DNA from: Lacisediminimonas sp.
GTDB taxonomy: Bacteria; Pseudomonadota; Gammaproteobacteria; Burkholderiales; Burkholderiaceae_D
Direction of reading: 5' to 3'
NCBI RefSeq assembly: GCF_030645335.1
Contig: NZ_JAUSNH010000016.1
Coordinates: forward strand, 1 to 39,329
DNA: 39,329 nt
Each line of letters begins with the position of its first letter. Position 1 is the first letter of the stretch. Both the position numbers and the translations under genes were made by a program. Below the pieces are notes generated by a model. That model ran no database searches and was not told where the DNA came from. It saw nothing but the letters and a program-made list of their open reading frames with translations. This document shows, piece by piece, positions 15,466-27,521 of the stretch.

Positions 15466-15921
15466 ATGCAAATACAGATCGGTGACATCGGGCACATCAT
15501 CCAGCTGGCAATTGCACCTGTGTTCCTGCTCACGGGTGTCGGTACCAACTTGCTGGTGCTCACTAATCGCCTGGCCCGGGTGATCGATCGTTCCCGTGTG
15601 CTGGAAGATCGGATGGAGGCGCGGGGCGAGGCGGTGATGGATGCCTCCCTGGCGGAAATCGCCATCCTGTACCGTCGCGCCAAGCTGATCAATAGCGCGA
15701 TTACCCTTTCCACCACCTGCGGCTTGTTGATCTGCCTGGTGGTTGCCGCCCTGTTCCTCGGCGATGCCCTTGGGCTGGGCCTGGCCACGCTGATTGCCGG
15801 GCTATTCGTGCTGGCGATGTTTTGCCTGATCGGCAGTTTCGTCTTCCTGCTGCGTGAAATCTTTGTGGCGACCAATTCGCTTTGGATGGGGCGGCTTGCG
15901 CACCGCCATACAAGGAGTTAA
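15466..15921 (+). CDS. DUF2721 family membrane protein
   Basis: MQIQIGDIGHIIQLAIAPVFLLTGVGTNLLVLTNRLARVIDRSRVLED...: DUF2721-like with three TM segments. Confidence 0.82.
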   Translation: MQIQIGDIGHIIQLAIAPVFLLTGVGTNLLVLTNRLARVIDRSRVLEDRMEARGEAVMDASLAEIAILYRRAKLINSAITLSTTCGLLICLVVAALFLGDALGLGLATLIAGLFVLAMFCLIGSFVFLLREIFVATNSLWMGRLAHRHTRS

Positions 15922-15997
15922 AAAGGCCATTTGTTCGGTTGACGAATTATCTGCCTTGGCGCATTGTTCGCCAAACAACTTGTTGACTCAAGGCATC

Positions 15998-18900
15998 ATG
16001 ATCCCTAGCGATTCTCAGGATGGCGATCTGGATCGCGACTTCGATGCGTCGATGCTCGCCCTGGTAGCGCAGTCAGTGGGTTTCATCGTGGCCATCTATG
16101 AAATTGAAGATGACCTGATCTACCTCAGCGATCAGTGGTCGCTGCTGACCCGCGCCAACGCCAATCCTGTTTATCTGAGTGTCCACGAGTTCAGCACCCT
16201 GGTGCATCCGGACGATTTTCCGGCGGTTTCGGAAGCACTCGGCGCATGCTTGCGCGGCGAGAGTGAAAACTGGGATGTGGAATTGCGGGTGCGCGCGGCC
16301 ACCGGCGAATGGCGCCGGCTGATGTTGCGGGCCAGGATTGCCGCCCGCAGCGAGTTAGGCGCACCGCAGCGCATCATGGGCGCCATGTTCGATGTATCCG
16401 ATCATCATCGGGCATCTGCCGGCACCGAGGTACAAGACGAGGTTTACCGCTCGTCGTTCGAGCAGAGCATCAATGGCATTTTGCTGGGCACGCCCGACGG
16501 TGGCATCTTGCGTGCCAATCCGGCGGCCTGCCGCATGTCGGGGTATACGGAAACCGAATTGATCAGCCTGGGGCGCGACGGCCTGATCGATACCAGCGAT
16601 GGCCGCCTGGCGGGATTCCTCACCCAGCGGCGATACTTTGGCAAGAGCAGGGCCAGCGTGTCGCTGATCCAGAAAGATGGCAGCCTGCTCGAAGTCGAAC
16701 TGACCTCCGTGCTGTTTACCGATAGCCAGGGTTTGCGCAAGAACGTCATTACCCTGTACCCGGCCTCCGACAATGGCAGCGCCGAGCGCTCGCTTTATCG
16801 CGTCACCCGGATGTATGAGGCCCGCAAGCAATGCAGCAAGGCCATCATCCTGTCCAAGAGCAGGGACACCATGCTGGCCGAGGTATGCCGTGTGGCAGTG
16901 GCGTCGCAGCACCTGGCGCTGGCATGGTTTGGTACAGTGGACCCGGCAACGCTTGCGGTGGTGCCTGTTACCCGTTGCGGCGACGAATCGGAATTCCTCG
17001 ACACCGCCTATTTTTCCGCCGATGCGCGGGTCGACGAAGGCCGCGGCCCGGTTGGCCGGGCATTGCGCGAGAACCGGGCGCAGACATCCAATGACTTCCT
17101 GCGCGATCCGGAAGCGGAACCCTGGCGCGTCCTGGCCGGCCGCCATGGCATGCGCTCGGTTGCAGTGCTTCCGCTGGGACAGGGCGGCGAGCAAGTCGGT
17201 GTGTTGGTGCTGCATGCGCGCGAGCTTGATTTTTTCGACCCGCAATTGCTGGAACTGCTGATCGAACTGGCGCAAGAGATATCGTTTGGCCTGGAAAACC
17301 TGCAGCGCGACGCCGCCTTGCATGAAAGCGAGTCCCGCTTCCGGACGCTATGGGAAACCGCACTCGACGCCATCGTGATCCTGGACGAGCAATCCCTGGT
17401 CCACTATGCCAACCCCGCCATCACCACGCTGTTTGGTTACCGCATCGAAGAAATCATCGGCCGCGGCTTTTGCATGCTGTATCCGCCGGCGCAGGGCGAG
17501 GTCCATGAGCGCGCCATGCAGCGCTACCTGTCCGCGCCGCGTTCCGGGCGCCGCTGGCGCGCGGTAAGCACCATCGGTCGCCACAAGGACGGTCGCAATA
17601 TCCTGATCGAGATCACCTTCAACGATGTCACCATTGACGGTGCGCGCCGCTTCATCGGTTATGTCCGCGACGTCACGCAGCGCAAGCAGGCCGAGCAGTT
17701 GAACCGCAAGCAGAACAGCATCCTGCGCCGCATTGCCGGCGGAGCCGGGCTCGACCCCACGCTGGAGGCAATAGCGCGGATGGTGGAGGGCGAGATGGAG
17801 GAGACGGTCTGCGCCTTCCTGGTGGCCGACGATAGCGCATCGGGCTTCACTGATTGCGTTGCGCCTTCACTGCCGGTTGCGGTGGGCAAGGCGCTGCTTG
17901 CCACGGAGATTGCCAAGTCGGCCGGGCCGGCTGGTGCAACTGCGCAGCGCAGGGAGCCGGTAATCCTGGCGGACCTGTCGGTGCAAACTGCATGGCCGGA
18001 AGCAGTCCAGGCCATCGTGTCGCGCGGCATCCTTGGGTATTTCTGCTGGCCCATCATCGGGCGCTCGTCACATTTGCTGGGCGTCATGGTGGTAGAGCGG
18101 GGCGAGCCCGGCGTACTGGGACCGGCCCACAACCGGGTCGTCCAGCTCGCGCTCGACCTTGCTGGCGTTGCCATTGAAAGCCGCAAGTCGGAAGAGCTGA
18201 TCCGGCATCTTGCCCAGTTCGACGAATTGACCGGCCTGGCAAACCGCACTTTCCTGATCGAGACCCTTGAGCGTTCGATCGCCCGGGCGCGGCGGGGCGA
18301 GGCGCAGGTCGGTGTATTGTTCGTCGACCTCGACCGCTTCAAGCTTATCAACGACACCATAGGCCATGAAGCCGGCGACATCGTATTGCGCGAAGTTGCC
18401 CGCCGCTTGCAAGATGTGGTGCGCAAGGGCGACCAGGTTGGGCGCTGGGGCGGTGACGAATTCATCGTGGTGATCGAGCAGTACGTTGACGTTGGCACCC
18501 TGACCCGGGTGGCAGACAAGCTGATCAATGCGATTTCGGTGCCGATCGCCGTGGGCGATATCGAGTACCAGCTCACCGCCAGCATCGGCATATGCACCTG
18601 GCCGGACGATGGTCCGGACCTGCAATCATTGTTGCGCAATGCCGATCTGGCGATGTATCGCGCCAAGGAGCAGGGACGCAACAGTTTCCGTTTCTTTTCG
18701 GCGCAGATGGGTGTCAGTTCGCTTGAGCGGGTACGGCTGGAGTCGGGCTTGCGGCAGGCCGTGGAAAATGACGAACTGGTGCTGCATTTCCAGCCCAAGC
18801 TCGATCTGCTCACTGGCGAGATCACCGGCATCGAGGCGCTGCTGCGCTGGCAGCATCCGCAGCAGGGCCTGATCTGGCCGCTGAAGTTCATTGAACTGGC

Positions 18901-19582
18901 AGAAGAAACCGGCCACATCGTTGCCATCGGGCGCGCGGTGCTGCGCAAGGCTTGCGAGCAGATGCGGGCCTGGCAGATGGCGGGCCTGACTTCCGGCCGG
19001 ATTGCGGTGAACCTGTCGGCGCGCCAGTTGCTCAGCGAAACCCTGATTTCGGATGTGGCCGGGGCGCTGGAGGAGAGCGGCCTGCCGCCAGGCATGCTGG
19101 AACTGGAGATTACCGAAAGCATGTTGATGAACAACGCCCGTGCCGGGCTAAAGCGGCTGGCCGAGCTGCGCGGCATGGGGGTGCACCTGTCGATGGACGA
19201 TTTCGGAACCGGCTACTCGTCGCTGGCGAACCTGAAGCGCTATCCGATCGACAGCGTCAAGATCGACCGTTCCTTCATCCGCGACCTGCCGCACGACAGC
19301 AATGATGCGGCAGTCACCGAAGCCGTGGTGGCGATGGCGCATGCACTCAAGCTGCGTGTGGTGGCCGAAGGGGTCGAAACCGAGGCGCAACTCAATTTTC
19401 TGCACGCCCAGAAATGTGACGAAATACAAGGCTACTACTTCAGCCGGCCGGTCGCTGCTGCGGTGCTGGAGGATTTCATGCGACGTTATGTTTCGTCCGA
19501 CCGCATCCGGCTGGCGCTGCAGGGCGGGCAGACAAAAATGCCTGCCGCGCCACCGCTGCTGCCATCCCGCGACCCCGGGTAA
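15998..19582 (+). CDS. PAS/GAF sensor diguanylate cyclase/phosphodiesterase (GGDEF-EAL)
   Basis: 1194 aa from MIPSDSQDG; three PAS-like and two GAF-like segments, RWGGDEF, RKGD I-site, and EALLRW plus DDFGTGYSSL EAL motifs. An upstream in-frame start at 15854 is also possible but overlaps the DUF2721 gene. Confidence 0.93.
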   Translation: MIPSDSQDGDLDRDFDASMLALVAQSVGFIVAIYEIEDDLIYLSDQWSLLTRANANPVYLSVHEFSTLVHPDDFPAVSEALGACLRGESENWDVELRVRAATGEWRRLMLRARIAARSELGAPQRIMGAMFDVSDHHRASAGTEVQDEVYRSSFEQSINGILLGTPDGGILRANPAACRMSGYTETELISLGRDGLIDTSDGRLAGFLTQRRYFGKSRASVSLIQKDGSLLEVELTSVLFTDSQGLRKNVITLYPASDNGSAERSLYRVTRMYEARKQCSKAIILSKSRDTMLAEVCRVAVASQHLALAWFGTVDPATLAVVPVTRCGDESEFLDTAYFSADARVDEGRGPVGRALRENRAQTSNDFLRDPEAEPWRVLAGRHGMRSVAVLPLGQGGEQVGVLVLHARELDFFDPQLLELLIELAQEISFGLENLQRDAALHESESRFRTLWETALDAIVILDEQSLVHYANPAITTLFGYRIEEIIGRGFCMLYPPAQGEVHERAMQRYLSAPRSGRRWRAVSTIGRHKDGRNILIEITFNDVTIDGARRFIGYVRDVTQRKQAEQLNRKQNSILRRIAGGAGLDPTLEAIARMVEGEMEETVCAFLVADDSASGFTDCVAPSLPVAVGKALLATEIAKSAGPAGATAQRREPVILADLSVQTAWPEAVQAIVSRGILGYFCWPIIGRSSHLLGVMVVERGEPGVLGPAHNRVVQLALDLAGVAIESRKSEELIRHLAQFDELTGLANRTFLIETLERSIARARRGEAQVGVLFVDLDRFKLINDTIGHEAGDIVLREVARRLQDVVRKGDQVGRWGGDEFIVVIEQYVDVGTLTRVADKLINAISVPIAVGDIEYQLTASIGICTWPDDGPDLQSLLRNADLAMYRAKEQGRNSFRFFSAQMGVSSLERVRLESGLRQAVENDELVLHFQPKLDLLTGEITGIEALLRWQHPQQGLIWPLKFIELAEETGHIVAIGRAVLRKACEQMRAWQMAGLTSGRIAVNLSARQLLSETLISDVAGALEESGLPPGMLELEITESMLMNNARAGLKRLAELRGMGVHLSMDDFGTGYSSLANLKRYPIDSVKIDRSFIRDLPHDSNDAAVTEAVVAMAHALKLRVVAEGVETEAQLNFLHAQKCDEIQGYYFSRPVAAAVLEDFMRRYVSSDRIRLALQGGQTKMPAAPPLLPSRDPG

Positions 19583-19632: not shown

Positions 19633-21582
19633 TCACCATAAGGCGCGGCCGACATTGGGATCAAGTATCCATCCCGGTGGTATTCGCGTGCCGAATGCCG
19701 CGCCATAGCCCTCCATGCCCCCCTGCGCCTGCATTGGCCCCCAGGCCTGCTGCAAAAAATTTTCACCGCCACCCATCAGCGTCGAAAATGGCGACAAGGA
19801 AAAGCTTTGGATTCCCGCCGCCGGTGAGCGCGTCATGCCGCCGATCTGTGTGCTGACCCCTGGACCGGATCGCATGGCTGCCGGGAATTGTTGCGCCGGA
19901 GGCTGCAGGCCCAATGCGATCAGTACGTCGGGCATGCCAAAGCCGGTTCTTTTCGGATCGCCGATATTGATCGCCCTGGTGCTGAACCGGATGATCTGGA
20001 ACAGGCGCTCGACCCGCTCCGCGCTGCGGGTCGCATAGCGCTGCTGGAAGTCCGGGTGGTGCGCCAGGACCAGTGCGGCCAGTCCCGTCACATGCGGCGC
20101 TGCCATTGATGTACCGTCCCACACAGCGAAGTTATTGTCCGGAACCGAAGAGGTAATCGCCACACCGGGCGCACATACCGCAATCTGCGGTCCGAAGCAG
20201 GAAAACTTCGCACTGAAGTAACCATCGGCATCGATCGCGCTGCCGACTGTTTCGGTGTGATAGCTGTCAGGCGGGAATTCCCCCACCTTGCCGATTGCCG
20301 CCACCGCCAGCACATGCGGCGAGGACGCCGGATACTGCACTTCATTACCGGAATTGCCGGCCGCGACAATGCAGGCAATGCCCTGCCGCCGCGCCCGCAA
20401 CAATTGCTGCTCCAGCGCTTCGGACGGCTGGGCGCCGCCCAGGCTCAAGTTGACCACGTCCACCTGCTGCTCGATGCAGTACTCCAGCGCGTCGATCAGT
20501 TGGCTGACCTGGCCGCCGGGGAACAGCTTGCAGACGTGGATCTCGGCGTCAGGCGCGAATCCGCGGATGCCGCGCGGGCCATCGCTGCCGGCGATCACGC
20601 CGGCGCAGTGTGAGCCGTGCGCAATCATGTCTTCGGTCCAGGTACCTGGCGAGGTGCGCTTGTTGATGATGTCGATGCCCAGGTGCACGCCCTTCAGGTC
20701 ATCATGGCTGGTGGCGGCGCCGGAATCGATGATCGCAATCCTGATCCCCTGCCCGCGAAACTGTGGCGGCAGCCGGTCCAGCCGCATCGCCTTCTGGCCC
20801 CAGCCCAGCGCCTGCTGCTGCGGGAACAGCGACAGCGACGGCCAGTCGGCAAGCGGGCGCAGTCCGACCACGTTGGGCCCATCGAAATCGATGTCCGGGT
20901 TGCGCTGGTAAAAGCTCCAATGATCCGCCCTGGGTTTGACATAGAGCGCGCTGATGCTGTCCGGTGTTTCGCCAAACAGTGTCAGCAGCGCCCGGCCCTG
21001 CGCATCGGTGGTGGCATTGGCTGGCAGCAGGCTGCCAAACAGGTAAACTTCCGCGCCGGCCACGGGCGCGTTGTCGGCACCCACCACAAGCACGCCGACC
21101 TGGACCGGCACGCTGCCCTGTGTCGTGAATCCCGCCACCATGCCCGGTGCCGAGAAGCTCGGGTCAAGCAGGTGCAGGCTCTGGTCCGGTTCGACAATCA
21201 CCCGCCCTTGTCCCTGCTGGTTCAGGTTGCTCGCCTTGTCGTCTGCCATGCGCGCCACCAGCACGCTGCTGGAGTCGCCGATTCCGGCACCGAGTGCACC
21301 GATCGCCGACTTCGGCTTGATGATGTCGACGATCTCGATGTCGGGGCTGTTGCGCAAGGCCTGTTCGATCACGTTCGACTGCAGTGGCATCAGTCCCATC
21401 ATCATCAGGCCTTCTTGCTGGCGGCTGGCGACCAGGAACTGTGACTTGCGCCGGCCGATCCGGTGCGGCCCGGGGGCAGGGCCGGCAGCATTGGCGGGGG
21501 CCAAGCGGTCGGAGGAGGGCTGCTTGTCGGCCTCGGAAGACGCCGGGGTAGCGCTGCCGGTGCTCGTGTGTCGTTTTGTCAT
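19633..21582 (-). CDS. S8 subtilisin-like serine protease with N-terminal propeptide-like and beta-sandwich (CnaB/TTR-like) regions
   Basis: Catalytic motifs IRIAIIDSGAATSHDDL (Asp), AHGSHCAGVIAGSDG (His), AAGNSGNE (Asn), DGTSMAAPHVTGLAAL (Ser); 649 aa from MTKRHTST. Confidence 0.93.
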   Translation of the reverse strand: MTKRHTSTGSATPASSEADKQPSSDRLAPANAAGPAPGPHRIGRRKSQFLVASRQQEGLMMMGLMPLQSNVIEQALRNSPDIEIVDIIKPKSAIGALGAGIGDSSSVLVARMADDKASNLNQQGQGRVIVEPDQSLHLLDPSFSAPGMVAGFTTQGSVPVQVGVLVVGADNAPVAGAEVYLFGSLLPANATTDAQGRALLTLFGETPDSISALYVKPRADHWSFYQRNPDIDFDGPNVVGLRPLADWPSLSLFPQQQALGWGQKAMRLDRLPPQFRGQGIRIAIIDSGAATSHDDLKGVHLGIDIINKRTSPGTWTEDMIAHGSHCAGVIAGSDGPRGIRGFAPDAEIHVCKLFPGGQVSQLIDALEYCIEQQVDVVNLSLGGAQPSEALEQQLLRARRQGIACIVAAGNSGNEVQYPASSPHVLAVAAIGKVGEFPPDSYHTETVGSAIDADGYFSAKFSCFGPQIAVCAPGVAITSSVPDNNFAVWDGTSMAAPHVTGLAALVLAHHPDFQQRYATRSAERVERLFQIIRFSTRAINIGDPKRTGFGMPDVLIALGLQPPAQQFPAAMRSGPGVSTQIGGMTRSPAAGIQSFSLSPFSTLMGGGENFLQQAWGPMQAQGGMEGYGAAFGTRIPPGWILDPNVGRALW

Positions 21583-21602
21583 ATTGTTGATCCTGTTTCG
21601 TT

Positions 21603-21860
21603 TCAATTCCCGCCACCGGGGAAGGGGGACAGTGGCTGGTCCGGTTCGATGCTCAGGCGAGTCGCTGCGCGGAATCGGTGACGCAAGGCCTTTGCCTGTG
21701 CGTCATTCATCCGCACCACCGCGGTATGGGGCGCGTGCGGCGGGCCGATGGTGTCTTCGAGTTCAAGCGCCGGGTCGCTGCGTATGCCATCGAGTACATC
21801 GGCCAGCGTGGCGGGATCCGCGGCGTGAACCAGGTAACGTGTTGATGCGGGTCTGCTCAT
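21603..21860 (-). CDS. 85-aa protein resembling a stand-alone subtilase propeptide / I9-like inhibitor
   Basis: MSRPASTRYLVHAADPATLADVLDGIRSDPALELEDTIGPPHAPHTAVVRMNDAQAKALRHRFRAATRLSIEPDQPLSPFPGGGN; aligns with residues ~48-140 of the downstream protease. Confidence 0.8.
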   Translation of the reverse strand: MSRPASTRYLVHAADPATLADVLDGIRSDPALELEDTIGPPHAPHTAVVRMNDAQAKALRHRFRAATRLSIEPDQPLSPFPGGGN

Positions 21861-21887: not shown

Positions 21888-21913
21888 GGCCGGACCCGTA
21901 TCCGGATCCGGCC
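21888..21913 (-). terminator. Candidate (weak) intercistronic terminator/attenuator hairpin
   Basis: On the minus strand GGCCGGA-N12-TCCGGCC is followed by CTTCTTGTT, between the repeat-protein stop and the 85-aa gene start. Confidence 0.4.
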
Positions 21914-21951: not shown

Positions 21952-23097
21952 TCAGTGGATGGTTTGCTGGCCAAACCCTGCGCCGGTGGCGCCCTGCGGA
22001 TTGGCATAGCCAGTCCCGCCACCCTGCTGTCCTTGCTGTGCCTGCTGCTGCATCAACTGCTGCAGCATTTGCTGCTGCGCCAATTGGGCCTGCAGCGCAT
22101 ACGCCGTTGCCGGATCATTGGCGAAGGGCAGGATCTGCCCGATCTGACCGGCGATGTTGCCAATCTGCGAGCCCAACTGCTGGTTGCCCAGCATGCCGCC
22201 GACGGCGCTGCCCACTGGTTGGCCGTATTGGCTCAGCAGGTTGCCGAACCATCCTTGCGGCCCCAACGACTGCTGTCCCTGGCCAGGCTGTTGCTGTTGC
22301 TGCTGCTGTTGGGCTTGTTGCCATGCTTGCTGTTGCGCCAGTTGGGCGTAGGCCAGCGTGGCGGGATCAGCGTTGAACGGCAGCATGCGGCCGAACTGCC
22401 CGGCTATGCCGCCGATGGTGCTGCCCATTCCCCGGTTGCCGAGCAAGCCGCCGATGGCGCCGCCGACCGGTTGTGCAATCTGTCCGAGCAAATTGCCAAA
22501 GAATCCCTGCGGCGCAAATTGCTGGCCCTGGCCCTGTTGCGCCTGTTGCTGTTGTTGTTGCTGCTGTTGCAGCAACTGTTGGAGTTGCTGCAGTTGCTGT
22601 AGCTGTTGCAGTTGCGCCGGATCGGCATTGAAGGGCAACATTGAACCGAGCTGTCCTGCAATTCCGCCTATCGTGCTGCCCAGTCCCCGGTTGCCGAACA
22701 TGCCGCCGATGGCGCCGCCAAGTGGTCGTCCAACCTGGCCGATCAGGTTGCCGAAAAATCCTTGCGGCGCCAGTTGTTGCTGTTCCTGTGGCTGTTGCTG
22801 CTGTTGCTGCAGATTTTGTAGTTGCTGCAGTTGCTGCAGTTGCTGCAGTTGCTGCTGCTGTTGGGCTACTTGCATCGGATCCGCATTGAAGGGCAGGAAG
22901 CCCCCGCCGATGCCGCCCGCGATCTGGCCGATCTGTCCACCCAACTGCGAATTGCCGAACAGGCCACCGATGCCGCGCCCCACCAGGCCACCGACCGGCC
23001 CGCCCAGCAGGCTGCCGAATAGCCCCTGTGGAGCCAGACCGCCACCGCCACCATAGGATTGCGCATAGGGATTGGCGTTGTATTGGGATTCGTACAT
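21952..23097 (-). CDS. Glycine-zipper / polyglutamine repeat protein (381 aa)
   Basis: Four repeats of APQGFFGNLxGQxxxPxGGAIGGxxGNRxxGSTIGGIAGQxGxxLPFNADP joined by polyQ/LQQ linkers; RBS AAAGGAG just upstream of the ATG on the minus strand. Confidence 0.88.
   Translation of the reverse strand: MYESQYNANPYAQSYGGGGGLAPQGLFGSLLGGPVGGLVGRGIGGLFGNSQLGGQIGQIAGGIGGGFLPFNADPMQVAQQQQQLQQLQQLQQLQNLQQQQQQPQEQQQLAPQGFFGNLIGQVGRPLGGAIGGMFGNRGLGSTIGGIAGQLGSMLPFNADPAQLQQLQQLQQLQQLLQQQQQQQQQAQQGQGQQFAPQGFFGNLLGQIAQPVGGAIGGLLGNRGMGSTIGGIAGQFGRMLPFNADPATLAYAQLAQQQAWQQAQQQQQQQQPGQGQQSLGPQGWFGNLLSQYGQPVGSAVGGMLGNQQLGSQIGNIAGQIGQILPFANDPATAYALQAQLAQQQMLQQLMQQQAQQGQQGGGTGYANPQGATGAGFGQQTIH
22111..23037 (-). repeat. 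Four-copy coding repeat: 22876-23037, 22618-22773, 22363-22518, 22111-22266
   Basis: Repeat units of 54, 52, 52 and 52 aa, spaced 88, 85 and 84 aa apart, counted from the translation. Confidence 0.9.
22822..22848 (+). repeat. 9-nt tandem repeat (TTGCTGCAG)x3 within an LQQ-encoding linker
   Basis: Three exact copies read at 22822-22830, 22831-22839 and 22840-22848, followed by TTGCTGCTGCTG. Confidence 0.85.
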
Positions 23098-23481: not shown

Positions 23482-23916
23482 CTACCGTTGACGGTCCGGC
23501 TCATGCCAGCGGCGATGCTCACCGCCACCATGCAGCCGGCGCAGTTCATGCTCGTGCCACTGGCGAAGGTGCAGCTCTTCCTCGAACAGACGCCGGTCGC
23601 GCAGCGAGGGGTCGCCATGGGTAAATGGCGGCGGCTGCGGCGGTACAGGCTGCCAGCCCGGGTAGAAAGGCTGCATCGACGTATAGGGAAAAGCCGGCGT
23701 GACGAAAGGCGAGGGAGAGGGCGCTTGCAGCAAGGGCGGCGGTGGATTGAACATTCCCGGGCTTGGCGCAAGATGCGGGAGCGGCGCTGGCGGCGCGCGA
23801 TGATGCGCCCCGGGTGGCGGATTGACCAGCCCCCTTGCTCCATGCGCCAAGGCGTTGAGCGGCGCCCACAGGTACAGGCACGCAGCAAAAGCAACAAGAC
23901 CAGTAATGATGCGCAT
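23482..23916 (-). CDS. Proline-rich protein with N-terminal signal/anchor segment
   Basis: MRIITGLVAFAACLYLWAPLNALAHGARGLVNPPPGAHHRAPPAPLPHLAPSPGMFNPPPPLLQAPSPSPFVTPAFPY...; GGAG located ~8 nt upstream of the ATG on the minus strand. Confidence 0.62.
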   Translation of the reverse strand: MRIITGLVAFAACLYLWAPLNALAHGARGLVNPPPGAHHRAPPAPLPHLAPSPGMFNPPPPLLQAPSPSPFVTPAFPYTSMQPFYPGWQPVPPQPPPFTHGDPSLRDRRLFEEELHLRQWHEHELRRLHGGGEHRRWHEPDRQR

Positions 23917-24339
23917 GACAGGACTCCGGACAAGGTCGCCTGGTGGAAGCCGGCACCCGATAACTTTGACATGCCGGAAACAGGATCGATGCCGGCAGGC
24001 GCAAAAAAAGCCCGGTTCGTTGCCGGTCCGGCTATTGACCCGGGTCAAGCAGTTCCGGTAAGGTAAGCGCCTCCCATCTTTCCTGGCTGCACAGCATGCG
24101 CGACTCTTCCGGTTCTACCGCACGGGCGTTACCGGGCAAAAGCAGGCAGTTCAATTTCAGCAAGCTGCAGGCCGTGCTGTGCATGGCGGCGTCGGCTGCG
24201 GTGAGCGTCGCCCTGCTGGCCTGGGCGATTTCAGCCTGGTCCTGAGCATCGGGCGCTGATGTCTTCCGCCAGGCTGCTGGTGGATCAACAACGCATTGCC
24301 GATTGACCACAAGCAAGACCGCCACTACACTGGCGCCGT

Positions 24340-24534
24340 ACTGGTGCACGCACGCCTGTCTGGCGTGCAGTTAAACGGGAAACACGGCGCGAAGCGCGGC
24401 TTCGCCAACGTGTGCTGCCCCCGCAACGGTAAGCAAGCGTATGGGTCATCCATACCGGCTGTCATGAAGCCACTGTGCCGAAGTCCGGCATGGGAAGGCC
24501 GGCAGTTTGTCTTGCTAGCCCGGATACCGGCCCG
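24340..24534 (+). ncRNA. Cobalamin (AdoCbl) riboswitch
   Basis: GGTGCACGCACGCC...AAACGGGAAACACGG...GCTGCCCCCGCAACGGTAAGC...AGCCACTG...GGCATGGGAAGGCCGGC...AGCCCGGATACCGGCC (B12 box), upstream of a btuB-like gene. Confidence 0.93.
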
Positions 24535-24623
24535 TACAGGTGAAGACCTCGCGCAAGCAGGCCTTCGTTCGAACCGGGCTTGCGGGGAAGCCGGCCCGGT
24601 ACTCCTCGTAGCAAACCATCATC

Positions 24624-26528
24624 ATGAACCCTCGTTTTACCTGCGCTCCCGCATGGACGCCGTTCGCACTCGCCCTGGCCATTGGCGCGGCTTATTCTCC
24701 ACTCTCCCAGGCGCAAGCCAGATCCGATGCCACGCTGCCTGAAGTCCAGGTAAGCGGCTCGCGCTTTGTCAGCGATCCGGTTTTCGCGCCGCTTGGCGCC
24801 ACCGTCATCAGCGCCGATGAAATCCGCGACGCCGGCATCGGCAACGTCAGTGAGGCGATACGCAAGCTGGGCAATGTATCGGGCCGACAAGGCTTTACCG
24901 CGCCGGATAATTTCTCGCTCGACATGCGTGGCTTTGGCGCCAACAGCGACCAGAATATCGTGATCATGGTAGACGGCGTGCGCCTGTCAGAAAATGAACA
25001 GGCGGCTGCGCAACTGAGCGCCGTGCCGATCGACAGCGTCGAGCGTATTGAAATCGTGCGCGGTGGAAATAGCGTGCTGTACGGTGACGGCGCGATCGGC
25101 GGCACGATACAGATCATCACCAAAAAGCCGCAGCGCAACACCCAGCGCGCCAGTGTGTTCGTTGAAGCAGGCAGCTTCGGCCAGCGCGCCGCACGTGCCA
25201 CGTTTTCAAAGGACTGGAACGGCCTGGCGCTGGATGCCAACCTGAGCCGGCAGGATCAGGAAGGCTATCGCCGCAATAACGCCGTGCGCGAAGAAAATGT
25301 CAGCGCCAGCTTGCAAAAGTCTTTCGAAGGCGGGCGTGTCGGTCTGCGCGTGGAGAATGGCACGCAAGATTTCCGTCTGCCTGGCGCCTTGTCCCTGGCG
25401 GCATTCCAGGCCGATCCGCGCGCGACTAATACGCCGCGCGATTTCGGCTCGCTCGACAGCCGTCGCACCACCTTGTTCGGCGAGATGCGCGCCGGTGAAC
25501 TCGATTTCGCCGCCGAACTTTCCAATCGCGAAAAAGCATCGCGGCAATATGGCAGTTTCCCGTATTCCTTCGATACGCGCACCACGCAGTTTTCCCCGCG
25601 CGTGCGCTGGCTGGGTACTGTCGGCGGCCTGCGCAATGAGCTCGTCAGCGGCATCGACCTCACGCGCTGGTGGCGCAGCGTCGGCAGCGCAATCGCGTCG
25701 CAAGACGCCCAGGCGATCTACCTGCGCGATGAATTGCGCATCGGGCGCTGGCGCATGGCTGCCGGTGCGCGCCACGAAAGTTTCGACAAGAAGGACACCA
25801 AATACAAGGTCGAACAAAGCGTCAATGCCTGGGAGCTGCAGGCGGCTTATGCGGCAAGCGAGCAGGCCGAGGTCTATGCCAAGCTCAGCAAGAGTTACCG
25901 CATCCCCAACGCGGACGACAATGCATTCCTGGCCAAGCCCTTGTTGCCGCAGACCTCGCGCGATATCGAAGTCGGCGCCGTGCTGGGCGATGCGCGCCGC
26001 AAATTCATTGCACGGGTATTTCGCCACAAGCTGTCCAACGAGATATTTTATGATCCGACCGTGTTCTCCAACGTGAACCTTGATCCGACGCAGCGCGAAG
26101 GTTTCGAGCTGGAAGCCAATCTGCGCATAGCGCCGAGCGTGTCGCTGGCCGGTGCGTTTTCGCATATCGCCGCCGGCTTCACTGCCGGGCCGAATGCCGG
26201 ACGCGAAATGATCCTGGTACCGCGCAATACGGCCTCGTTGCGCGTGAACTGGATGCCTGGCGGGCCGCAGCGCGCGACCATCGGTGTACGCTGGACGGAT
26301 GAGCAGCGCTATGGTGACGACTTCAGCAACGCGTGCAGCAGGCGCATTGCTTCCTATGCGGTGGTCGATGCACGGTATGCTTATCGCAGCGGGCCATGGG
26401 AATTTGCCGCCACCGGCAGCAACCTGGCCAATCGAAGTTATTTCAGCAATGCCTTCTCCTGCGCCACCGGCAGCGTCTACCCGGAATCCGGCCGCCAGGT
26501 CCGGGTATCGCTGCGACGTGATTTCTGA
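24624..26528 (+). CDS. btuB: BtuB-like TonB-dependent outer-membrane receptor
   Basis: Signal peptide, plug domain (MRGFGANSDQNIVIMVDGVRLSENEQAAAQLSAVPIDSVERIEIVRGGNSVLYGDGAIGGTIQIIT), terminal Phe; directly behind a cobalamin riboswitch. Confidence 0.9.
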   Translation: MNPRFTCAPAWTPFALALAIGAAYSPLSQAQARSDATLPEVQVSGSRFVSDPVFAPLGATVISADEIRDAGIGNVSEAIRKLGNVSGRQGFTAPDNFSLDMRGFGANSDQNIVIMVDGVRLSENEQAAAQLSAVPIDSVERIEIVRGGNSVLYGDGAIGGTIQIITKKPQRNTQRASVFVEAGSFGQRAARATFSKDWNGLALDANLSRQDQEGYRRNNAVREENVSASLQKSFEGGRVGLRVENGTQDFRLPGALSLAAFQADPRATNTPRDFGSLDSRRTTLFGEMRAGELDFAAELSNREKASRQYGSFPYSFDTRTTQFSPRVRWLGTVGGLRNELVSGIDLTRWWRSVGSAIASQDAQAIYLRDELRIGRWRMAAGARHESFDKKDTKYKVEQSVNAWELQAAYAASEQAEVYAKLSKSYRIPNADDNAFLAKPLLPQTSRDIEVGAVLGDARRKFIARVFRHKLSNEIFYDPTVFSNVNLDPTQREGFELEANLRIAPSVSLAGAFSHIAAGFTAGPNAGREMILVPRNTASLRVNWMPGGPQRATIGVRWTDEQRYGDDFSNACSRRIASYAVVDARYAYRSGPWEFAATGSNLANRSYFSNAFSCATGSVYPESGRQVRVSLRRDF

Positions 26529-26558: not shown

Positions 26559-27521
26559 ATGAACGCACGACCGATGCTCTTGTCGCTGCTGGCGGGACTG
26601 GCCGTGCTGGCGCTCGCGCTGGGCGTGGCATGCGGCAGCAGCGGATGTAGTGCATTGTCATCCGACATCCTGTGGCAACTGCGCCTGCCACGCGCGCTGG
26701 CCGCGTTTGCGGTTGGCGCCTTGCTGGCCCTGTCCGGCGCGCTGATGCAGGTGCTGCTGCGCAATCCGCTGGCTGATCCCTATGTGCTGGGCGTGTCCGG
26801 CGGCGCAGCCGCCGGCGCCATGCTCGGGCTGAGCTTATTTCCGGCGCTGGCCTGGAGCCTGCAAGCCGGTGCGCTCGCCGGCGCCCTGTTGTCACTGCTG
26901 CTGTTGCTGGCACTGGCCGGGCGCGCGCTGATGGGCGCTGCCGCGCCAGCTTCGACCGCGCCGGCCGGCGTGCGCCTGATCCTGACCGGCGTGATGATCG
27001 CGGCCGCATTCGGTGCACTGCTGTCGATGATGTTGGCCATGGCGCCCGACAATGCGCTGCGCGGGGTGTTCTTCTGGTTGCTGGGCGACCTCGAGAGCAG
27101 CCGCTACCAGGCGTTTGGCTGGATCGTGCTGGTGGCCGCCGTCATCTGGTCATGGCTCGCTGCGCCGCAGCTCAACGTGCTGGTGCATGGCGACGCGGCG
27201 GCTTTCCTGCTCGGCGTCCGGGTCGACCGCTTGCGCCTGATGACCTTGCTGGTGGCGGGCATTTCCACCGCAGCGGCGGTCTCGGTTGCCGGCACGGTCG
27301 GCTTCATTGGCCTGGTTGTGCCGCATGCGGCGCGCCTGATGATCGGCAATGACCAGCGCCTGCTGCTGCCTGCTTGCGCATTGGCCGGTGGTGCGGTGCT
27401 GGTACTGGCCGACCTTGTTGCGCGCACGGTGGTGGCGCCGGTGCAATTGCCGGTGGGTGTCATTACGGTGCTGGTCGGCGTACCGGTATTTCTCGTCCTG
27501 CTGGCAAGGAGCCGGACATGA
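26559..27521 (+). CDS. btuC: FecCD-family ABC transporter permease (cobalamin)
   Basis: LRLPRALAAFAVGALLALSGALMQVLLRNPLADPYVLGVSGGAAAGAMLGL: FecCD/BtuC signature. Confidence 0.9.
   Translation: MNARPMLLSLLAGLAVLALALGVACGSSGCSALSSDILWQLRLPRALAAFAVGALLALSGALMQVLLRNPLADPYVLGVSGGAAAGAMLGLSLFPALAWSLQAGALAGALLSLLLLLALAGRALMGAAAPASTAPAGVRLILTGVMIAAAFGALLSMMLAMAPDNALRGVFFWLLGDLESSRYQAFGWIVLVAAVIWSWLAAPQLNVLVHGDAAAFLLGVRVDRLRLMTLLVAGISTAAAVSVAGTVGFIGLVVPHAARLMIGNDQRLLLPACALAGGAVLVLADLVARTVVAPVQLPVGVITVLVGVPVFLVLLARSRT

Follow-up and report, generated by a model that had tools for sequence, protein, structure and literature searches.

The Gln- and Gly-rich repeat protein (REP) encoded at 21952-23097 of the window, i.e., of the whole stretch of 39,329 nucleotides from Lacisediminimonas sp. 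that was analysed, belongs to a conserved three-gene unit, in which REP is followed by an 85-aa prodomain-like protein and then by a leaderless S8 protease. The first-pass annotation had considered REP on its own; its protein stands, and the two conserved partners, which it had missed, are added here. Membership in this unit changes what should be tested about REP. As the favoured though tentative explanation, argued from the sequences, we propose that REP might be an abundant, multivalent, self-associating scaffold storing the S8 protease, which would be restrained by a free inhibitor. The features of the unit are as follows:

21952-23097, minus strand: REP, 381 aa; ATG-start ORF with relatives, dN/dS ~0.1 against the L023 copy
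22876-23034, minus strand: glycine-zipper unit R1, residues 22-74, 53 aa; common to the alphaproteobacterial homologues
22771-22875, minus strand: linker 1, Gln/Leu-rich, 35 aa
22618-22770, minus strand: glycine-zipper unit R2, residues 110-160, 51 aa
22516-22617, minus strand: linker 2, Gln-rich, 34 aa
22363-22515, minus strand: glycine-zipper unit R3, residues 195-245, 51 aa
22264-22362, minus strand: linker 3, Gln-rich, 33 aa
22111-22263, minus strand: glycine-zipper unit R4, residues 279-329, 51 aa
21955-21966, minus strand: C-terminal tetrapeptide QTIH of REP; family form usually [QP]T[LIVM]H
21888-21913, minus strand: intrinsic-terminator-like hairpin with a stem of 11 bp and a T-rich tail, separating REP from the small gene
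21603-21860, minus strand: 85-aa subtilase-prodomain-like protein, probable inhibitor/chaperone of S8 (hhalign, AF2, fusions L071 and L074)
19633-21606, minus strand: leaderless S8 subtilase, 657 aa; TTG start at 21606, PF00082 E 3e-40
21157-21450, minus strand: prodomain-like N-terminal domain of S8, ~residues 53-150; homologous to the small protein
20041-20754, minus strand: catalytic domain of S8, residues 285-522
19636-19899, minus strand: tail of S8, ~residues 570-657, with a terminal Trp; similar to REP units in several relatives

Compared with its copy in a sister genome of the same genus (L023), REP has a dN of 0.16 and a dS of 1.67 over the whole length, the units alone giving 0.10 and 0.99. 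The dN being well below the dS, the frame represents a genuine gene under purifying selection and not a chance ORF; the plus-strand ORFs overlapping it are regarded as mere shadows cast by the repeats. The same architecture was found again in about 60 other genomes. The protein contains 26.5% Gln and 20.5% Gly, no Lys and no Cys, and has a net charge of -1. The best 19-residue Kyte-Doolittle window over the whole protein is 1.16, with no window above 1.6, and the same scan revealed no hydrophobic signal at the N-terminus, in agreement with the signal peptide having been described as absent. The ORF, the four units, and the Gln-rich linkers of the first-pass annotation were all recovered, as were the GxxxG glycine-zipper spacing of the units and the unusual nature of the linkers. 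Structure prediction, which it had suggested, gave only a partial answer, since the AlphaFold model of full-length REP is of low confidence (pLDDT 54) and informative for the helical hairpins only.

The unit lengths reported earlier (54/52/52/52 aa) coincide with ours (53/51/51/51 aa) once the residue before each unit is counted, and the linkers, previously placed at 32-34 aa, measured 35, 34, and 33 aa. The DNA copies of the units keep the register at spacings of 252, 255, and 261 nt and have an identity of 69-71%. In the family, R1 is the most conserved unit, the parsed members have from one to seven recognisable units and linkers of 8 to ~158 aa, and His is the last residue in all 60 of them. 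The likeness of the units inside each protein suggests that they may have undergone concerted evolution.

The Gln-rich, prion-like linkers had also been pointed out, and the family gives no support for regarding them as the key to function. With 32 Q/N in its best 80 residues, REP of the window lies above a prion-like threshold of 30 Q/N in 80 residues; only 62% of 53 relatives reach this value, and the two alphaproteobacterial homologues, which have Pro/Ala spacers, remain below it with 13-15 Q/N per 80 residues. Because the alphaproteobacteria retain the three-gene unit with such spacers, poly-Gln is not essential. A prion-like behaviour of REP is possible but would not be the conserved trait, which, as far as the compared proteins indicate, is the association of modular repeats on low-complexity spacers with two partner genes.

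The probing of Pfam with REP retrieved only a sub-threshold match to DUF5832 (24.4 versus 26.7 bits); this match and that to phrog_3112 (PHROGs) were rejected as compositional, i.e., due to low complexity. No match was retrieved from NCBIfam, and REP does not fall within the curated glycine-zipper families of either Pfam or NCBIfam. Thus, the already characterised family for which the first-pass annotation had left room was not found, as no curated family of these two collections covers REP.

The alignment (hhalign) of the small protein with the N-terminal domain of S8 itself gave a probability of 98.3 and an E value of 1.6e-14, and the former is, on this comparison, a paralogue of the latter. 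Its AF2 fold (beta-alpha-beta-beta-alpha-beta, pLDDT 82) is compatible with a subtilase prodomain. In the fold search, the ferredoxin-like fold, which is common, dominates, and EpiP (S8, residues 29-100) ranks only 46th with a Z of 7.4; Foldseek and VIA returned many unrelated ferredoxin-like folds and did not point to prodomains in particular. Neither a Pfam match nor a PDB sequence relative was found for the small protein, and no member of its set A1 matches the curated Inhibitor I9 model at E 1. The small protein probably inhibits S8, by analogy with SUB1-ProM of Plasmodium, a potent stand-alone propeptide-like subtilase inhibitor (PMC6993865). SUB1-ProM is likewise a separate propeptide-like gene beside subtilase genes; unlike the unit of the window, it is eukaryotic and without a repeat-protein partner, and inhibition by the bacterial protein is only predicted. 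Genes for proteins of ~80-90 aa, prodomain-like by eye, also follow other S8 protease genes at a short distance on plasmids of Pararhizobium (L126:6152-6397), Cupriavidus (L137:4980-5261), and Methylobacterium (L139:5031-5270).

The third gene product is assigned to peptidase S8 by its PF00082 match, with the catalytic Asp-His-Ser inside the domain; the ATG at 21582 is a likelier start than the TTG at 21606. Searches with PADLOC and PHROGs returned subtilase or protease matches only. Residues D294, H330, and S500 are invariant in 13 aligned proteins, and the triad motifs are intact in 70 out of 72 loci; the two exceptions are fragments. The triad is thus always kept in whole proteobacterial genes, which implies that proteolysis matters in these bacteria. 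Trp is the last residue in 61 out of 65 loci. In 39% of 44 loci, the tail is more similar to REP than shuffled tails are (z > 2), the median z being 1.2; the best case is L028, whose tail carries the REP-like LAPQAWFGALAGQ (z 6.6), and that of L026 contains a REP half-unit with DPALAAYA (z 5.4).

All three genes are present in the order given above in 60 out of 67 betaproteobacterial loci, and in two further loci (L071 and L074) the small gene and S8 are fused in one open frame. The remaining five comprise one locus without the small gene, one disrupted, two at contig ends, and one in which REP is hidden by an artefact of automatic start calling. Among the relatives first examined, the small gene is missing at G048/L032, all the others having the three genes in the same order. 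The small-protein profile matches 96 of the 372 genomes of the window's family (93 of 365 when only good genomes are counted), and 275 other genomes sampled from the class gave no match; Massilia agilis is among the members with a species name. The S8 tree mostly tracks genera, and this, together with the family-wide presence and the zero matches outside, makes the unit look like an inherited trait. A fourth conserved gene did not emerge when the neighbours were clustered over the loci, and some Massilia-type loci have chromosomal neighbours in common. A prophage or mobile origin was rejected, as REP was not found in plasmids, nor were relatives of the N-terminal region of S8 found in viral contigs.

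A stem of at least 8 bp follows the REP stop in 52% of 63 loci, versus 2% of shuffles; a similar share (49%) have a stem after the S8 stop. The hairpins between REP and the small gene suggest that REP would be produced in excess.

Two alphaproteobacterial genomes of one genus (L135 and L136) carry the three-gene unit. The R1 zipper of L135 shares 54% identity over 54 aa with that of the window (E 2e-7); after R1, REP of both genomes continues with another repeat, a 47-aa sequence in tandem copies on Pro/Ala spacers, and closes with -TMH, and their S8 ends in -GLL. In a draw of 192 alphaproteobacterial genomes, the unit was present only in the genome on which the draw was centred. In four genomes of the window's family (L107-L110), the gene upstream of S8 encodes a Q-rich helical-repeat protein (type 2); the S8 there is leaderless too, is shorter, and has a prodomain-like N-terminus. 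The acidic repeats of type 2 are built around AAAAGMDLPTYxAxLQ; the gene lies ~49 nt before S8, and the two proteins end in QALGLL (QALGVR in L110) and AMIAQLG, respectively. Moreover, S8 homologues on Streptomyces plasmids (L124, L125, and L138) show 35-36% identity over residues 56-582 (E ~1e-75), and Q/G-rich low-complexity proteins, related to REP by position and composition only, are encoded upstream of them. In all three S8 homologues, Thr or Ala stands in place of the catalytic Ser (DGTTIAAAH or DGTAIAAAH), and they are predicted pseudoproteases. The pairing of a Q-rich protein with dead proteases implies that the partnership outlasts proteolysis. In the tree, the alphaproteobacterial copies adjoin the betaproteobacterial ones, and Streptomyces and type 2 lie further out, the deeper joins being uncertain owing to long branches.

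As regards the rest of the window, a gene for a PAS-GAF-GGDEF-EAL protein of 1242 aa (15854-19582, plus strand) is convergent to the S8 gene. Just upstream of REP lies a His/Pro-rich ORF (23482-24048, minus strand), with a possible signal peptide when read from an internal Met and conserved only in L023 among the loci compared. Downstream of a cobalamin riboswitch (24325-24549, plus strand; Rfam RF00174, 76 bits) lie genes for a TonB-dependent receptor (24624-26528) and for a FecCD permease (26559-27521), together probably a vitamin B12 uptake locus.

In the storage explanation, the gene order, the small-protein homology, the triad, the hairpin, the REP-like tail pieces, and the C-termini are read from the sequence, and to these we add, as what we infer, self-association, docking, inhibition, trigger, and target. 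REP, made in excess, would act as a sticker-and-spacer protein, with the zipper units as stickers and the low-complexity linkers as spacers, and would self-associate in the cytoplasm; the leaderless S8 would dock on it via its REP-like tail, and the free prodomain-like protein would occupy the catalytic site, so that the protease would stay quiet until this protein is removed. The freed S8 might then cut REP, itself, or other targets. What favours this explanation is the order in 60/67 loci plus two fusions, the small-protein paralogy, the hairpins, the REP-like tails, and the inherited look of the unit, as well as the repeat and spacer swaps of the alphaproteobacteria, the Streptomyces pairing, and the precedents of GerG/Csp (PMC5241399), SUB1-ProM (PMC6993865), and PopC/PopD (PMC6434023). 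It is weakened by the low pLDDT of the REP model, by the triad being always kept in whole proteobacterial genes, where proteolysis thus matters, by a tail likeness that is clear in a minority of loci, by a small protein without a Pfam match whose fold search does not single out prodomains, by a Streptomyces partner related only through position and composition, and by the GerG repeats being dispensable in germination.

GerG is a gel-forming low-complexity protein needed for the subtilase-family Csp proteins in Clostridioides difficile, and its repeats are dispensable for the germination role (PMC5241399). By description, GerG/Csp resembles REP/S8 in joining a repeat-rich low-complexity protein to subtilase-family proteins, some Csp being pseudoproteases; unlike REP, GerG is Asn/Met-rich, acts in spores, and is reported from C. 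difficile only. In Myxococcus xanthus, the subtilisin-like protease PopC lacks a signal peptide, is held by its partner PopD, and is secreted on starvation (PMC6434023). It is comparable to S8 as a leaderless subtilase with a partner protein and differs in that a repeat scaffold is not reported and in its secretion on starvation. Cyanobactin proteases of the PatA/PatG type, which process multi-core precursors, also place an S8 protease beside a multi-unit protein; however, the TIGR03895 match of S8 reflects the catalytic fold only (37.5 versus a cut-off of 421 bits), and modification enzymes were not seen beside the S8 gene of the window.

Near-identical tandem units beside a dedicated protease with an intact triad might instead depict a polyprotein, cut by S8 between the units so as to free several membrane-active glycine-zipper peptides, which would serve as a bacteriocin or, in the manner of gasdermins, for cell suicide, the small protein being the safety catch. 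Glycine zippers do occur in bacteriocins such as Cdz of Caulobacter, whose GxxxG repeats aggregate (PMC5380434), and the alphaproteobacterial repeats hold an amphipathic, KK-bearing segment, QSFWSVLKKIGQGVQTGV (moment 0.56). However, Cdz comprises type I secretion genes, an immunity protein, and short toxins (84-86 aa) whose N-termini are leader-like (PMC5380434), and at the REP loci no type I secretion or immunity gene was found, no neighbour is conserved beyond the three genes, and no transporter or leader recurs. The hydrophobicity of the units (best window 1.16) falls short of that of a classical membrane span, no common cleavage motif was seen in linkers ranging from 8 to ~158 aa, the type 2 repeats are acidic, and the Streptomyces proteases are catalytically dead; we thus consider a polyprotein somewhat unlikely.

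As another possibility, REP and S8 might leave the cell together without leader peptides, their C-termini (-TLH and -W) serving as export signals and REP forming an extracellular matrix or surface fibre trimmed by S8. This reading rests on the fixed C-termini, since the final residues of both proteins are very strongly fixed. Leaderless subtilase export has a precedent in PopC (PMC6434023), and the composition of REP is silk-like. This alternative is unlikely, given that signal peptides are absent, that secretion genes do not recur at the loci and no transporter was found, and that the ends of REP and S8 differ from each other, the alphaproteobacterial S8 ending in -GLL. Finally, a leaderless protease accompanied by an inhibitor-like protein is reminiscent of a response module held ready, and REP might be a sensor or bait whose assemblies, perturbed by damage or infection, would free the protease and trigger a defence or stress response. 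This is improbable: PADLOC gave no match for REP or the small protein and matched S8 to subtilase and IetS models via its catalytic domain only, and the loci look inherited and not mobile, the search of viral contigs having yielded no relative.

S8 and the prodomain-like protein each represent a known kind of protein, and their combination with a repeat scaffold appears undescribed; no description of the three-gene unit was found in the literature searched, an absence that is not proof. That the storage explanation represents a new kind of bacterial protease-storage body, with a self-assembling scaffold of swappable repeats, a fixed module, a tail-loaded leaderless subtilase, a free-prodomain lock, and a pseudoprotease version in Streptomyces, is rather doubtful. 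If true, it would be a bacterial membraneless store for a protease otherwise dangerous in the cytoplasm, in a compact three-gene design. The swaps of repeat type with constant partners would permit a comparison of the low-complexity features that matter for assembly, and a Q-rich bacterial protein, otherwise viewed alone as a possible prion, would gain named partners.
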